Notes under the pieces: model-generated
Database searches by the model: none
The model's input: the letters and a program-made list of their open reading frames with translations, nothing else
What the model was told of the DNA's origin: nothing
In this document: positions 100-34,780 of the stretch, piece after piece
Layout: each line of letters starts with the position of its first letter
Numbering within the stretch: position 1 is the first letter of the stretch
Position numbers and translations under genes: made by a program
IMG/VR virus record: IMGVR_UViG_3300020162_001145
Span: 1-34,780 of that record
Direction: 5' to 3' (one strand)
DNA length: 34,780 nt
Source of the DNA: a virus

Positions 100-852
100 A
101 GCGTCTGCATGCACGACGGAGTGCCCTGTGCGCGCCCATGATGCGCTTCGATCCTCTTTGCCGTCAGCCGTCAATGGGTAGGCCGCTTGTCCGCTGCGCT
201 TGGTCGCCCCATGCGTTCCGATCCGGCACGCATCCACGTTGATCGCCCCCGTTCCATGCGCGAGCACGTTCGCGGCGACGGTGCCGATGAGGGGCTTCCT
301 CGCGAGGATGACAGGCTCCCACGCTGGCTTGAGAGCGGTGCCCCAGCCTTGCCATTGACGAGCGGCGTCGGTCGCGGGGGCGGTGAGCGGAGACATCTTT
401 ACTGCTCCGACGGAGGTTCCACCAGATGCAGCCACGGAAGCGCGTCCGGTATCTCCTCCGATTGCGGCCGTTCCTGTCAGTCGCTGATATCCCACCACAT
501 CGCGTTCTGCTCCCGCTGCCTTGTCGAGCGCCTTGCTCACGTCGAGCGACTTCGGGAATCCCGAACCGTAAAGCCACGATAGACAGTCGCGCACCTCCCA
601 GCCTGCGTCCTCGACGGCGCACGCGAGCCTGTGGAAGGTGCGAGTGCCACCGAAGGCGACGAGGTGCGCTCCGGGCTTCGCGACGCGTAGAGCCTCGCGC
701 CAAAACTCGACACCGGGCACGCCGTGATCCCATTCGCGACCCATGAACGACAGCCCGTAAGGAGGGTCCGTCACGATGGCGTCAACGCTATCGGCCTCCA
801 TCGTGCGCATCGCGTCTCGACAGTCCGCATGATGCAGCGTCCAGCGCGTCAT
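1..852 (-). CDS. DNA amino-methyltransferase (N6-adenine or N4-cytosine), N-terminal part; gene runs off window start
   Basis: This is the first 284 codons of a gene that continues at 34681-34445 when the circle is closed, giving 362 residues in all. It should transfer a methyl group from S-adenosylmethionine to an exocyclic amino group in DNA. Catalytic motif IV, DPPY, is at about residues 29-32. The SAM-binding motif (DPFNGSGSTG, about 316-325) comes late, so the order is catalytic then SAM-binding, as in beta-class enzymes. The middle (about 120-260) is low in known motifs and probably holds target recognition. The ATG at 852 overlaps the stop of the upstream small-terminase candidate as ATGA, which suggests coupled translation. 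No restriction enzyme lies nearby, so it looks like an orphan phage enzyme. Base specificity (A or C) cannot be decided by eye. Confidence 0.9.
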   Translation of the reverse strand, partial: MTRWTLHHADCRDAMRTMEADSVDAIVTDPPYGLSFMGREWDHGVPGVEFWREALRVAKPGAHLVAFGGTRTFHRLACAVEDAGWEVRDCLSWLYGSGFPKSLDVSKALDKAAGAERDVVGYQRLTGTAAIGGDTGRASVAASGGTSVGAVKMSPLTAPATDAARQWQGWGTALKPAWEPVILARKPLIGTVAANVLAHGTGAINVDACRIGTHGATKRSGQAAYPLTADGKEDRSASWARTGHSVVHADAGRWPANVALDEAAASMLGEPSRFFYTAKASRRE

Positions 853-1340
853 TCGTTGCCCCCTAGCAGCGTCTTCGCCGCTGCGGACAACTCCTCGTGA
901 CTCATCCGGTCAACCGCATCGACGGCAGCAAGCTGGACCGGACCACCTCCAGGCCCGCTCACTTCCTTGCGCTCCTTCGGTGGCGCCCATTCGTCTGGCG
1001 CTCGACGCTCAAGCCACCATGCGGACGCCTTCCAGTCGTCGGCAACCGCGACCTTGGCGACGTGGCGAGCTTCGGCCGATGCCCTGGCATCATCGACCCA
1101 ATCGCGCAACTCGAGGTCAACGGCCATCTTCTCCCGGAGGCTCGTCTCAGGGATGCGCAGCGCAGCGCAGGAGGCACGGAGTGGGATGCCTTGCTCCAAC
1201 AGGGCTATCAGAGCGGCGATTCGCTCTTCGGACTGCCACGCTCCGCGCGCGCGAGACAACGTTGGGCGGGATGAATTTCCATCATCTCCAGCACGCTCTA
1301 CCGCAGCAGCCTCATCCGGCGCCGTCTTCCTCTTTCGCAT
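849..1340 (-). CDS. Candidate terminase small subunit
   Basis: A 163-residue protein likely to recognise phage DNA for packaging and recruit the large terminase. The N-terminus is basic (KRK) and low in complexity. Residues about 36-75 could form a helix-turn-helix (ALLEQGIPLRASCAALRIPE, then TSLREK). The C-terminal half has the spacing WWLERRAPDEW, then a charged stretch and GPGGGPV, which I know from many phage small terminases and homeodomain-like packaging proteins. The large terminase lies two genes downstream in the same operon, which supports the call. The start at 1340 has AGGAG about six bases upstream. It overlaps the methyltransferase start by ATGA. The alternative is a generic DNA-binding protein of the late operon. 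Confidence 0.65.
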   Translation of the reverse strand: MRKRKTAPDEAAAVERAGDDGNSSRPTLSRARGAWQSEERIAALIALLEQGIPLRASCAALRIPETSLREKMAVDLELRDWVDDARASAEARHVAKVAVADDWKASAWWLERRAPDEWAPPKERKEVSGPGGGPVQLAAVDAVDRMSHEELSAAAKTLLGGNE

Positions 1341-1429: not shown

Positions 1430-1789
1430 TCATGTTGGCACCGAATAGCACAGCAGAGCAACCCAGAATCGCTCTGGATTGGCTGCCAGTCCGGCAGGAC
1501 TCCAGCCGCTGCTGCGGGCCTCTGGCGAGTTCGCCCACCTCGTCGCAAGCGTGGCGCAGATGGAATCCGCTCTACCGCCCCCCAAGCCCCGGCAGGCCAT
1601 CCCTTCGCACCATGCTCCGAGCCGTCCCCAGCCATGCCAGTCGCCATCCTCTAGCAGCCCGTGGGGCGCTCCCTCAGCCTCGTCAACCGCTACCCGACAC
1701 CACTCCCTAACCAGCTCTGGCATGGAGGGTGCTACGCGTGCGCGCGCCTGCGCGCGCTTTCTTATTCTCTTCTCTTCTATAAGACTCAT
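1430..1789 (-). CDS. Hypothetical protein, first gene of the late unit
   Basis: A 119-residue protein that I do not recognise. It opens with a basic patch (EEKRIRKRAQARAR) and is rich in Trp, Cys and Gly in the middle. Reasons to believe it: it is in line with the late unit, its ATG at 1789 has GAGG nine bases upstream, and it fills the gap between the AT-rich control region and the small terminase. Longer plus-strand frames overlap it but have no start signal and oppose the transcription direction. As the first product of the late unit, next to the terminase, it might act in packaging or late control, but nothing in the sequence proves this. The codons for the basic patch form part of a GCGCGC tract at 1738-1757. 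Confidence 0.6.
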   Translation of the reverse strand: MSLIEEKRIRKRAQARARVAPSMPELVREWCRVAVDEAEGAPHGLLEDGDWHGWGRLGAWCEGMACRGLGGGRADSICATLATRWANSPEARSSGWSPAGLAANPERFWVALLCYSVPT

Positions 1790-2165
1790 CTAATCTAGCC
1801 TCTATCAGTCTTTCTAGTTTGGTTGTTAGGTATACGCTTAATCCTCGCTTATGGAGGTTCTCTCTCCTAGTAGGGTTTCATCATCGGAGAGGCTTTCTAG
1901 TAGGAGCGAGATTTATGAGAACAACTAAACACACAAACTAAAAACCTCTTAGAGGCTAGCTTAGAAGCTCTCATAGTAGCTTCTACGGAGAAGCGCGGGC
2001 GCGCGCGCGAGGGTCGTCTTGGTCGCTGGCCGGTTGGCCCGTCCGGCAGCGTGGCCGGTTGCAGCGCCTGGGATGCCGCTAGAAGCTCTCCAAACCGTCA
2101 GGACGGCCGCAGGTAGCGTCCGGGCCTGCTGCGGGCTTCCTGGTGGCTTCTAGGGGCTGCTCCAG
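1790..2165 (-). promoter_or_regulatory. AT-rich, repeat-filled intergenic region: probable late promoter, possible origin or packaging site
   Basis: This is the only gap of more than 300 bp. Bases about 1760-1990 are much richer in A+T than the rest and are bounded by GCGCGC tracts (about 1738-1757 and 1992-2009). Repeats seen: TAGAAGCTCTC at 1962-1972 and 2080-2090; CTTTCTAGT at 1810-1818 and 1893-1901; CTAGTAGG at 1867-1874 and 1897-1904, 30 bp apart; TGGCCGGTTG at 2027-2036 and 2052-2061; CTAGCCTCT at 1795-1803 inverted as AGAGGCTAG at 1951-1959. All late genes start to its left, so a leftward promoter is expected here. Only weak -10-like hexamers (CATAAA, TATACC on the minus strand) are visible, without good -35 partners. 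No open reading frame of interest is present. Confidence 0.6.
1963..1984. other. 7-bp inverted repeat (AGAAGCT / AGCTTCT)
   Basis: AGAAGCT (1963-1969) pairs perfectly with AGCTTCT (1978-1984) around an eight-base spacer. The half-site AGAAGC or its complement recurs at 2081-2086 and 2146-2151. This looks like a protein-binding site or iteron-like motif at the edge of the AT-rich island rather than a terminator, because no T-run follows on either strand. Confidence 0.45.
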
Positions 2166-3155
2166 TTATCCAGCCGGATGGGATAGCTGGACCGTCTGGA
2201 TACGCTCGCCAAGCCAGCGCATAACGGGGACGGCCATGGAGTTTCCGAGTGCTCGAAACCTTGCAGCGTCTAGCCTCGACTCCGGTTCCCATTGGATTTT
2301 CGTATAGTCATCGGGGAACCCAAAGCACCGCTCGACCTCGCGAGGGGTGAGCCTGCGGATTCTCGATGGTCCTGCATCGCATGAGCAGTCCGCATCGAGG
2401 TCGCATTCCACCGCGTGGGAGGTCTGCTCGAGGACGCGAATCCCTCTTTCTGTGGACTCTCCAAGCGACACAGACGTCAGCCCCGAGGCGACGTCTGTCG
2501 GTACGGTTTGCAGCCTGGAACCCTGTCCGCTTAGAGGGGTCACGGAGTAGCAGCGGCTGCTAGAGCGTACATCCATTCCTCCGGAGCTTTGTCCGTCCTC
2601 GCAAGCAATCCAGCGCACGCTCGAGGGCTCAAATAGTACCTCTGCGGCACGGGCTCCGCTTCCAAGATGTCCGACAAGGAACACGCGACGACGTCGCTGG
2701 GGAACTCCGAAGTGCTGAGCGTCCAGCACTCGCCACGCGAGGCTGTACCCGCATTCGACCAGCGCCCCGACGATGGAACCAAAGTCCCGTCCGTCGCCTG
2801 CTGACAGAACACCGGGGACGTTTTCCCAGATGACCCATCGAGGCCTGAGCCTGCGAGCCATTCGCGCATAGACCAGCGCGAGGTTTCCGCGCTCGTCCTC
2901 GATTCCTCCGCGAAGTCCGGCGATTGAGAAGCTCTGGCATGGTGTCCCTCCCACGAGAACGTCAATTGACCCTGGTTCGATGTTCCACGCTTCATGCTTC
3001 TCGAGGTCTCCAAGGTTTGGAACTTGCGGGAATCGCGCTGCCAGCACGGCAGATGCGAAGGGGTCAATCTCCGAGAACGCCACCGGCTCCCATCCAAGCG
3101 GCTCCCACGCCACGGAAGCCGCCTCGATGCCGCTGCATACCGATAGGTATCTCAT
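2166..3155 (-). CDS. dcm-like: DNA cytosine-5 methyltransferase
   Basis: A 329-residue enzyme that methylates carbon 5 of cytosine in DNA. Family motifs appear in the usual order: SAM-binding start (SVCSGIEAASVAW, 5-17), the catalytic PCQ with Cys73, ENV at 111-113, QRRRR at 153-157, a variable target-recognition stretch of about 165-260, then RRLTPREVERCFGFP and GNS at 304-306. The length is normal for a single-domain member. I start it at the ATG at 3155, not at the longer open frame, because motif I begins right after it. GGGAGG lies six bases upstream, and the ATG overlaps the helicase stop as TGATG. It is last in the early leftward operon. No cognate nuclease is visible, so it probably protects phage DNA from host restriction or marks it. 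Confidence 0.93.
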   Translation of the reverse strand: MRYLSVCSGIEAASVAWEPLGWEPVAFSEIDPFASAVLAARFPQVPNLGDLEKHEAWNIEPGSIDVLVGGTPCQSFSIAGLRGGIEDERGNLALVYARMARRLRPRWVIWENVPGVLSAGDGRDFGSIVGALVECGYSLAWRVLDAQHFGVPQRRRRVFLVGHLGSGARAAEVLFEPSSVRWIACEDGQSSGGMDVRSSSRCYSVTPLSGQGSRLQTVPTDVASGLTSVSLGESTERGIRVLEQTSHAVECDLDADCSCDAGPSRIRRLTPREVERCFGFPDDYTKIQWEPESRLDAARFRALGNSMAVPVMRWLGERIQTVQLSHPAG

Positions 3156-4453
3156 CACCAGCCTCCCTTGGCCTTCTTCGGCGCTGGGCCACCCTGTTCT
3201 TGGAGCAGCCCGTATGCGTCTCGGCGCATCCAGAATCTGCGGCCTGCGCTGGCGCGCTTGACCTTGGCGACCTTGCCGAAAACGCAGCCGAATCGCGGGT
3301 CCGATTCCTCGTCGGTCTCTCGCCAAAGCAGCACGATTGCTTGCGCGCTGTTCTCGATGTCGCCGCTTTCCTTGAGGTCGCCGTCCCCTGGTTCCTGATA
3401 CTTCCCTCCCTCGCCAGCCCTTCGGAGTTGGCTAGCCAACACGAGGACTGCGCCGAGTTGTGCCGCAGCAGCCATGAGCGTGGCCAAGCTATCGTTGACC
3501 TTTTCTCGCGTCGATGAGCCGACGTCCCGGTGCCGAATGGCCTGGAGGTAATCGATGAGGAGAACCTTGCAGCCACGGACTCGGACCATGTAGGCCATCC
3601 TCGACACCACGCCCTCGATACTGCGTGACCTGATTTTCGCGAATGAAATCGGCAGGTTAGCCTCTCGATCGATGCCTGCTGAGATTGGCTGGGAGTGTTC
3701 CGCGCGTAATCCAGTCGCCCACATCGCCGAGGCATCGACGCCGGAGATGGCTGCAAGTCCCTTAGAACCGAAATCCTCGGCGCCGTCCTCGATTGAGATG
3801 ATTCCGACCGGGGTGCCTGCCCTGGCCATGCCCATCGCCCAAGTCCAAAGAAGCGTGGATTTCCCCACGTTTGTCGCTGCGCCGAGCACTACTAGGTCGC
3901 CCGGACCAGCGCGGAAACAATCGTCTAGGCTGGGCGTGCCAAGTCGAACGAACCGCTTGGTTTTCGAGGCTTCGGAGAGTGCTGACACGGACTCGGTCAA
4001 TAGCTCCCGGAAGGTCAAGACGGGGTCCTCGGAAACGTCCTCGGAGAACGCGACCGCGGCCAATGCGCTCCGGGCCTCCAGCAGCGCGCCACGCTCTGCT
4101 AGCGCAGCGGCATGGAGGCTAGCGTCCCGGAGCGTCCTGCCCTGGGAAAGCTCTCGGAGCCGCTTGCTGCAGGCATGGGGGTCAAGCTCAAGGGTCGATT
4201 CGAGTTGTAGAAGCCGGTCCTCCCCGACCTGGGTTAGCCTGCCCTGTCTGTCCAGTTCCAGCCGAAGCGAGGACGGGGTCACTTCCTCGCGCCGAGCACG
4301 GATGGCCACTAGCGCCGACCAGAGCGCTTGATGCGCTGGGGAAGTGAGGTCCGAGTGCGAGACTGGAGCCTGCTCCAGCGCTTCGGCGCGATGCAGCACC
4401 GAGGCGAGGTAGCGCAATTCCAGCGCAGGGTCCGCGCAGGTCAGAGACGCCAC
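3155..4453 (-). CDS. dnaB-like: DnaB-family replicative DNA helicase
   Basis: A 432-residue ring helicase expected to unwind DNA at the phage replication fork using ATP. Residues about 8-95 resemble the DnaB N-terminal domain. The RecA-like core follows: Walker A GAATNVGKS (191-199), Walker B VLLIDYLQ (297-304), the sensor-like LASQLRR (339-345), and ESGDIENSA (362-370), which matches the conserved ESG-IE segment near the DnaB C-terminus. The start is GTG at 4453, with GGAGG just upstream and a 13-bp overlap with the previous gene. No primase, helicase loader or DNA polymerase is seen nearby, so host DnaG and polymerase III are the likely partners. RadA-like or KaiC-like ATPases share the core, but the N-terminal domain and the ESG segment favour DnaB. 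Confidence 0.93.
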   Translation of the reverse strand: MASLTCADPALELRYLASVLHRAEALEQAPVSHSDLTSPAHQALWSALVAIRARREEVTPSSLRLELDRQGRLTQVGEDRLLQLESTLELDPHACSKRLRELSQGRTLRDASLHAAALAERGALLEARSALAAVAFSEDVSEDPVLTFRELLTESVSALSEASKTKRFVRLGTPSLDDCFRAGPGDLVVLGAATNVGKSTLLWTWAMGMARAGTPVGIISIEDGAEDFGSKGLAAISGVDASAMWATGLRAEHSQPISAGIDREANLPISFAKIRSRSIEGVVSRMAYMVRVRGCKVLLIDYLQAIRHRDVGSSTREKVNDSLATLMAAAAQLGAVLVLASQLRRAGEGGKYQEPGDGDLKESGDIENSAQAIVLLWRETDEESDPRFGCVFGKVAKVKRASAGRRFWMRRDAYGLLQEQGGPAPKKAKGGW

Positions 4454-4757: not shown

Positions 4758-4972
4758 CGGCGTTCTCCAGGGGTCAACCGAAGCAGGTCCGCAACGGACA
4801 GCCCGGTGGCCCTCGAGATGGCCCTGGCGACTCGCATCCCAGGGATTTCGCTGGGGGTTGCCGCTGCGTATGCCGCCAGCGTGGGGCGCGAGATGCCTGC
4901 CGCTCTGATTACGCGCTCCGAAGCGCCTCGCCCTTCCTGCTCCAGCCAACGCTCCAGCCTGCTCTTCGCCAT
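4754..4972 (-). CDS. XRE/Cro-CI-type helix-turn-helix regulator
   Basis: A 72-residue DNA-binding protein, probably an early transcription regulator. Residues about 14-60 fit a Cro/CI helix-turn-helix: SERVIRAAGISRPTLAAYAA forms the core, followed by ARAISRATGLSVADLLRL, the usual last helices of the XRE fold. It has no C-terminal oligomerisation or protease domain, so it is Cro-like in size. The ATG at 4972 has GGGAGG seven bases upstream; the longer open frame into the control region lacks such a signal. It is the first gene of the leftward early unit and faces a palindrome at 5045-5060, its most likely operator. No integrase is present, so it need not be a lysogeny repressor. Confidence 0.8.
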   Translation of the reverse strand: MAKSRLERWLEQEGRGASERVIRAAGISRPTLAAYAAATPSEIPGMRVARAISRATGLSVADLLRLTPGERR

Positions 4973-5044
4973 GCTCCATCCTCCCGCGCACAGATGCGCT
5001 TGGAGCCAATACCAGCGCGGGGCTTGCAAGGCAAGAAACCTAAG

Positions 5045-5060
5045 CGAAAAACTTTTTTCG
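5045..5060. promoter_or_regulatory. Candidate operator: CGAAAAA-N2-TTTTTCG palindrome
   Basis: CGAAAAA (5045-5051) and TTTTTCG (5054-5060) form a perfect dyad around two bases. A third half-site, GCGAAAAA, is repeated in direct orientation at 5044-5051 and 5069-5076. The site lies between the divergent early units, 70-90 bp in front of the HTH gene. It is therefore a natural binding site for that regulator, though the A/T tracts could also act as bent DNA or an UP element. Confidence 0.55.
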
Positions 5061-5080
5061 ACTCCAATGCGAAAAAGAAC

Positions 5081-5109
5081 TTGAGGATTCACGGAGCGTC
5101 GTTCATAAC
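5081..5109 (+). promoter_or_regulatory. Candidate rightward early promoter
   Basis: TTGAGG (5081-5086) and CATAAC (5104-5109) are separated by 17 bases and each match four of six positions of the housekeeping -35 and -10 consensus. The A-rich GCGAAAAA lies just upstream. It would start transcription about 40 bases before the first rightward gene at 5159. I could not place an equally good leftward promoter in 4973-5075. Confidence 0.5.
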
Positions 5110-5158
5110 CCCTGAGTGGTCGCCGATGACGGTGGCCGAGAGAAAAGGACGAAAGAAA

Positions 5159-8482: not shown

Positions 8483-8696
8483 GCTAGTAGCGCTGCTGGC
8501 GCTGCGTCGTGGTGGAGATTTCGCCTCGGCGCAGCGCATAGCGGCAGCGTGCGACGACAGGATAGAGGCTACCAGGGTGCGCAAGTTTGCCGCGCATCAA
8601 GCCATCGTATACGCCCATCATCGATGGGACAGAGACACCGCAGCGGAGCTTGAGTTGGTCCGCTGCTTAGAGACTAGGAGACGCGTCAATGGATAG
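8463..8696 (+). CDS. Hypothetical 77-residue protein
   Basis: Not recognised. Mostly helical in appearance, rich in Ala and Arg (SELVALLALRRGGDFASAQ). It overlaps the resolvase by 20 bp. The ATG at 8463 has no good ribosome-binding site, so its start is uncertain and coupling to the upstream gene is likely. The next gene starts just before its stop. Confidence 0.5.
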   Translation: MGSAKSELVALLALRRGGDFASAQRIAAACDDRIEATRVRKFAAHQAIVYAHHRWDRDTAAELELVRCLETRRRVNG

Positions 8697-34026: not shown

Positions 34027-34445
34027 AGGTGCCAGAGGGAGCAAGGATTGAAGCGCAGCGTCCGGCTATCCTCCAGCCTCATCCACCGGTCTGTCCGATG
34101 CGAGTAGGACTCGAGTTGACCGGCGCGGTCTGCCTCGTCCAGCAGCGCTCCCATGAGTCCGCATGAGCGTCGAAGCTGCGTCGCGTAAACGTAATGGAGA
34201 GTCGGCCCGGACCAGCAGACCCAGCCGAGCAGGTGGTCCCGGTCGTCGGGGTCGCACGCTACCAGCGTGGAGGCAGCCGCTAGGATGCGCTCGACGCGTC
34301 GGAACATCGGGACGCGGTAATGGCCGATGCGTACCCCGCGGACGTCCCTGGAACCGCGGTAATATGATTCGACCCATGAGTGAGCAACCAAGCCAGTATC
34401 GGACGGCTCAGCAGCGCGGATGAGGCAGGGCCACGGGAGGGTCAT
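34023..34445 (-). CDS. GNAT-like acyltransferase-fold protein, 140 residues
   Basis: IRAAEPSDTGLVAHSWVESY (about 9-28) fits the first strand and helix of a GNAT domain. LLGWVCWSGPTLHYVYATQL (about 72-91) fits strands 4 and 5. RRSCGLMGALL follows where GNAT enzymes have the acetyl-CoA loop R-x-x-G-x-G/A; here the last position is Met, so cofactor binding may be altered. I know similar small GNAT-like proteins near terminase genes of other podoviruses. It starts in a TGATG overlap with the methyltransferase, so the two are probably made together. The substrate is unknown. Confidence 0.68.
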   Translation of the reverse strand: MTLPWPCLIRAAEPSDTGLVAHSWVESYYRGSRDVRGVRIGHYRVPMFRRVERILAAASTLVACDPDDRDHLLGWVCWSGPTLHYVYATQLRRSCGLMGALLDEADRAGQLESYSHRTDRWMRLEDSRTLRFNPCSLWHL

Positions 34446-34780
34446 CACAGCAACTCCATCTGCGCATGCGACGACTCTAGACGGCGCCGAGCAATCTCGA
34501 TGTATTCGGCCTCGCGCTCGCATCCGACGTAGCGCGCACCTTCGGCAAGCGCAGCAACGCCGGTTGAGCCGGACCCGTTGAACGGGTCGAGCACGAGGCC
34601 ATTCGGTGGAGTCACGAGACGCACGAGCCAGCGCATGAGCGCAAGCGGCTTCACGGTTGGGTGCGTGTTGCCCTCGCCGCGCTCTCGGCGGCTGGCCTTG
34701 GCGGTGTAGAAGAAGCGGGACGGCTCTCCGAGCATCGACGCCGCCGCCTCGTCCAGCGCGACGTTGGCGGGCCAGCGGCC
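34445..34780 (-). CDS. DNA amino-methyltransferase, C-terminal part; gene enters from window start
   Basis: This is the remainder of the gene listed at 1-852; the 99 bases 34682-34780 duplicate 1-99. It contains HPTVKP (full-length residues about 291-296), the SAM-binding LDPFNGSGSTG (about 315-325) and the final GCEREAEYIEIARRRL, all typical of beta-class N4/N6 methyltransferases. The stop at 34445 shares bases with the GNAT-like start (TGATG). Confidence 0.92.
   Translation of the reverse strand, partial: GRWPANVALDEAAASMLGEPSRFFYTAKASRRERGEGNTHPTVKPLALMRWLVRLVTPPNGLVLDPFNGSGSTGVAALAEGARYVGCEREAEYIEIARRRLESSHAQMELL
34682..34780. repeat. Right copy of 99-bp terminal direct repeat
   Basis: Identical to 1-99; see the left copy. 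Both lie in the methyltransferase gene in the same frame, so joining them restores one continuous open frame of 363 codons including the stop. That is the best internal evidence that the molecule is closed or permuted and not truncated. Confidence 0.97.

Follow-up and report, generated by a model that had tools for sequence, protein, structure and literature searches.

The DNA analyzed is IMG/VR virus record IMGVR_UViG_3300020162_001145, positions 1 to 34,780, and this whole stretch is called the window. The contig is a phage of 63% GC that circularizes via a 99-bp exact repeat at its ends. The minus strand encodes the terminase large subunit, portal, major capsid and head proteins, with a small HTH protein near 4970. 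The plus strand encodes RecE-like, RecT-like and RusA-like proteins and a probable SSB, assigned from its C-terminal DDDLPF sequence. The minus-strand order is HTH, dnaB, C5-MTase, the noncoding region 2165-1790, ORF119, terS, a second methyltransferase, and terL with the late genes. The location given in the original prediction is borne out. The region is noncoding and conserved, and it separates the DnaB helicase gene (with its inserted methyltransferase) from the ORF119-small terminase pair, ahead of the late genes; all of these lie on the minus strand. A regulatory role for such a region is plausible. The features considered are as follows.

849-1340, minus strand: terminase small subunit (phrog_4102, E 1e-14).
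1430-1789, minus strand: ORF119, a conserved small protein with an Arg-rich N terminus (in-frame gap, third-position excess).
1738-1757, minus strand: left GCGCGC tract, probably coding as part of the ORF119 Arg-rich N terminus; possible 3' side of a GC clamp.
1793-1961, minus strand: giant imperfect hairpin (inverted-repeat scan, shuffles, folds); the same hairpin was located by the scan at 3045-3222 in L002 and 8484-8664 in L003.
1799-1802, minus strand: ORF119 Shine-Dalgarno GAGG, 9 nt before the ATG at 1789-1787 and within the basal 3' arm.
1951-1959, minus strand: basal 5' arm CTAGCCTCT, invariant in the window, L002 and L003, paired in folds and complementary to the ORF119 Shine-Dalgarno region.
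1992-2009, minus strand: right GCGCGC tract, noncoding, 5' side of the GC clamp (CCCTCGCGCGCGCGCC, identical in all three phages).
1999-2191, minus strand: GC-rich segment upstream of the hairpin, conserved by its identity to L002 and L003 and folding strongly on either strand.
2166-3326, minus strand: C5 cytosine methyltransferase between dnaB and the leader (Pfam DNA_methylase; a gap in L002 and L003).
3155-4453, minus strand: DnaB-like helicase (phrog_19, E 1e-41; Pfam DnaB_C).

Three sequences were compared: the window, L002 (IMGVR 3300037493_003348, TerL 98% identical to that of the window) and L003 (3300027746_000066, TerL 95% identical). Viral contigs queried with ORF119, TerS, DnaB, TerL and two DNA patterns yielded no further carrier of the element. 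Bacterial genomes queried with ORF119 and TerL yielded no carrier either; the one match there was a distantly related TerL in an Actinomycetospora. Both methyltransferase genes are missing in L002 and L003, where dnaB directly precedes the leader region and its hairpin. The second of these genes spans the circle junction (34445-34780 joined to 1-about 852), and the pair brackets the hairpin-ORF119-terS block of the window. Their absence from both relatives suggests recent insertion as cargo. In L003 (8210-8275) and L002 (about 2750-2810), additional GCGCGC hairpins such as GTATGCGCGCGCATAC lie between dnaB and the leader; the window has the C5-MTase at that place and lacks them.

The original prediction described an AT-rich island bracketed by GCGCGC tracts and accompanied by short repeats, and the island is real. 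GC content is 0.397 across 1758-1991 compared to 0.634 contig-wide, and the lowest-GC 230-bp window of the contig sits exactly at this place, with the next lowest at 0.513. The tracts were found at 1738-1757 and 1992-2009 as described. The right tract is noncoding, and the left tract falls inside the probable gene ORF119. GCGCGC is not enriched across the contig (72 observed versus 80 expected). Every repeat was present in its predicted position: the 11-bp direct repeat TAGAAGCTCTC (1962 and 2080), the 9-bp direct repeat CTTTCTAGT (1810 and 1893), the 8-bp repeat CTAGTAGG (1867 and 1897) and the 9-bp inverted repeat CTAGCCTCT/AGAGGCTAG (1795/1951). The AGAAGC motif, put at four copies over both orientations, has five: three read AGAAGC and two read GCTTCT. 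Segment-wise dinucleotide shuffles were used to judge these repeats. The 8-9 bp direct repeats exceed chance modestly (P = 0.01 and 0.006), the 11-bp repeat does so only marginally when taken by itself (0.066), and exact short inverted repeats are unremarkable.

The feature missed by the original prediction is a long imperfect inverted repeat at 1793-1961. The AT-rich island is the upper part of this one giant imperfect hairpin; most of the repeats listed above are its arms, and the 9-bp inverted repeat is its base. The arms are ~70 nt long with scattered mismatches and contain 51-55 Watson-Crick pairs, and the GCGCGC tracts can extend the structure at the base (GC-clamp arms 1737-1753/1993-2009 are 88% complementary). 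The window hairpin scores 60 compared to a mean of 25 and a maximum of 42 in dinucleotide shuffles. The hairpins of L002 and L003 score 88 and 91; shuffle maxima are 42-48 over the three sequences, and 0/1000 shuffles reach the score in each. The inverted-repeat scan detects one repeat above threshold per contig, at the same place in all three phages. Among 19 other phage loci scanned, above-threshold inverted repeats occur in one contig only, L005, and the main one is a tandem-repeat array. This more distant TerL relative was considered as a homologous hairpin and rejected, its AT-rich array being unrelated; the array of GAGTATTCT repeats occupies positions 1-360, about 2 kb before TerL, and forms strong hairpins. 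Telomere resolution or a similar perfect palindrome was also rejected, given the imperfect arms and a tip that consists of a large loop or a second hairpin. An Rfam 15 covariance-model search returned no match up to an E of 5.

One long hairpin spans the island, with the same strength whichever strand is folded. G-U pairs (coding strand/other strand) number 3/3 in the window, 3/3 in L002 and 6/1 in L003. These wobble counts give the coding strand no clear preference and do not decide between RNA and DNA. The symmetry is what a DNA-level element could use, namely a replication origin or single-strand initiation site beside dnaB in which the AT-rich part melts and the hairpin extrudes as a cruciform. 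This reading also draws on the island being the AT-richest place in the genome and on its position directly after dnaB in the relatives. The rest of the evidence renders it unlikely. With one mismatch allowed, DnaA-like boxes are absent around the island (contig total of 5 versus 13 expected), so that a DnaA-dependent origin, which calls for a box cluster, is not supported. The cumulative GC-skew minimum is near 5000 and tracks gene direction; the skew shows no turn at the island, and a bidirectional origin marked by a turning point is not supported either. The GC clamp at the hairpin base is no help to melting. An iteron-type origin requires several conserved direct repeats, and iterons are unlikely because the 8- and 9-bp repeats are absent from L003. 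The AT-rich island near a helicase gene is reminiscent of phage origins with iterons plus an AT-rich stretch (lambda ori type), but those conserved iterons, a recognized initiator gene and a skew turn at the site are missing here. The origin proposed in the original prediction is thus weakened. Lack of repeat conservation in relatives was to count against that prediction, and the outcome is divided: the direct repeats are lost, but the inverted repeat is kept and is stronger in the relatives.

Repeats GCGAAAAACTTTTTTCG and GCGAAAAAG and the GC-skew minimum occur at 5040-5110 of the window, in the intergenic region from which the HTH gene and the rightward genes diverge. As a candidate site for operators, this region is preferable to the island.

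Conservation divides the hairpin into zones. The basal arms are conserved (1961-1937 and about 1829-1793) and the tip between them changes fast. Alignment identity of the hairpin to the window is 84% in L002 and 64% in L003, and the basal arms GCTAGCCTCTAAGNGGTTTTT and CCTAACAACCAAANTAGAAAGAC...TAGAGGCTAGA hardly differ among the three phages. The similarity of the L003 tip to the window tip is not significant (19/500 shuffles score equally high), and the L003 tip forms its own hairpin (63 versus a null maximum of 36). Conserved basal arm sequence with a free tip is as expected if only double-strandedness matters at the tip. Between the window and L002, no pair shows changes on both sides, and one-sided changes break 11-12 pairs.

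Stems can arise and be repaired by template switching without selection (PMC8794818). The hairpin may accordingly be an old inverted repeat that is a template-switch hot spot during DNA replication, where one arm is repeatedly recopied to complement its partner and the tip lacks a selected function. The clustering of window-L002 changes mostly in one arm, the 3' arm, suggests such events, as do the additional near-tandem copies within the arms of L002 and L003 and the known creation and repair of hairpins by this route (PMC8794818). Such an origin does not readily account for a single inverted repeat of this size per genome, fixed at one place, or for basal arms that are almost unchanged despite fourfold sites in dnaB and terL that are only about 50% identical to L003. 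Template switching is considered somewhat unlikely on balance, and the same low probability attaches to its corollary that selection acts only on the ribosome site and neighboring sequence.

The GC-rich leader upstream of the hairpin is 92% identical to the window in L002 and 85% identical in L003 by alignment; in the window, the first about 26 nt of 1999-2191 encode the end of the inserted C5-MTase. The L003 value indicates strong constraint by the dnaB/terL fourfold yardstick. It is not clearly above the value for the fourfold sites of ORF119 itself (76% over 54 sites), and the conservation may instead reflect local mosaicism. Alifold analysis of 1999-2191 detected 0 two-sided changes and no covariation support. 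The conserved segment and the neighborhood of terS, the gene after ORF119, are compatible with a packaging start (pac or cos) that the small terminase recognizes, and the 11-bp repeat and AGAAGC motifs are putative binding sites. However, the 11-bp repeat is damaged in both L002 and L003, and circular closure by the 99-bp overlap provides no physical end. To our knowledge, a giant hairpin is not required at known pac or cos sites. A packaging start is improbable on this evidence. Late-transcription control, either by a leader with a late promoter or by a put/nut-kind RNA antitermination element on the late operon, would suit the position ahead of the late genes and the strongly folding segments of the sense strand. 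A sigma-70-like site was not found, which does not refute a late promoter; the leader has no Rfam match, the GC-rich part lacks covariation and the terminator-like minus-strand CCTCTAAGAGG-TTTTT is disrupted in L003. Late-transcription control is considered unlikely. An intrinsic terminator, which calls for a conserved stem plus T run, was rejected because of the same disruption.

ORF119 directly precedes the small terminase gene and is 84-92% identical among the relatives. The frame is identical in all three phages, a gap of 18 nt stays in-frame, and 21/39 substitutions relative to L003 fall at third positions. This substitution pattern identifies ORF119 as protein-coding. Searches returned no family, structure or phage match, and the AlphaFold model has a mean pLDDT of 58, which is too low for a fold search. 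The accessibility of its Shine-Dalgarno was calculated by partition-function folding of about 570-600 nt. The unpaired probability of GAGG is about 0 in the window and L002, and that of GG is ≤0.08 in L003. The ORF119 site is the least accessible among 24 gene starts of this phage (0.00; the next is 0.08). In L003, three tandem 12-nt copies of TAGAGGCTAGRN occupy 8633-8671 just before ORF119, and every copy contains a Shine-Dalgarno-like core. With three copies present, it is uncertain what the true L003 site pairs with.

These calculations suggest that the hairpin probably folds in the mRNA and hides the start signal of ORF119. The best explanation for the element, offered tentatively, is a long hairpin in an RNA leader, located between the replication and packaging genes and masking the ribosome site of ORF119. 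Minus-strand transcription from the regulator/dnaB side would run through the GC-rich leader into the hairpin as one leader. The basal arm CTAGCCTCT would then pair with AGAGGCTAG, which holds the ORF119 ribosome-binding site. Translation of ORF119, and perhaps of a coupled terminase, would stay low until the stem is opened or cut, with RNase III, a phage protein or translation as candidate agents of release. The downstream Shine-Dalgarno lies inside the stem in the window and L002, as such a leader demands, and its partner in L003 is ambiguous. Equal folding on both strands, the lack of two-sided pair changes and the lack of an Rfam match argue against the leader hairpin. A fuller version, in which a ~380-nt leader with a free-tip giant hairpin is autoregulated by the Arg-rich ORF119 protein as a replication-to-packaging switch, is improbable. 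If the hairpin does control ORF119/terminase translation, it would constitute a structural replication-packaging switch for the uncultivated phages of this group, and a reporter assay would suffice to test such a switch, with no need for the phage itself. The locus is also a natural case of a long hairpin kept while its tip is replaced, which bears on selection versus template switching.

Two known systems are closest to the element. In template-switch-maintained hairpins (Monttinen and Loytynoja 2022, PMC8794818), one arm is likewise rewritten as the complement of the other and pairing is retained without stepwise compensation. Those hairpins were described for RNA genes such as rRNA (PMC8794818), whereas the hairpin here is in a phage intergenic leader, with a presumed mechanism of the same kind. 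The second system is the RNase III-controlled leaders, which the element resembles on paper; membership is not claimed. Ribosome sites hidden until RNase III cleavage are documented for adhE and lambda cIII, and the minimum RNase III target is 22 nt (PMC5371410). The stem reaches this length of at least about 22 nt, strongly in L002 and L003, where runs of >20 nearly uninterrupted pairs fit the minimum target, and with more interruption in the window. The lambda N/cIII leader RNAs and adhE share with the phage element a long stem before a gene and a ribosome site within the structure (PMC5371410), and the phage stem is long enough for RNase III. Unlike those leaders, the hairpin here is about 170 nt with a tip sequence that is not conserved, and the next genes are ORF119 and terminase.
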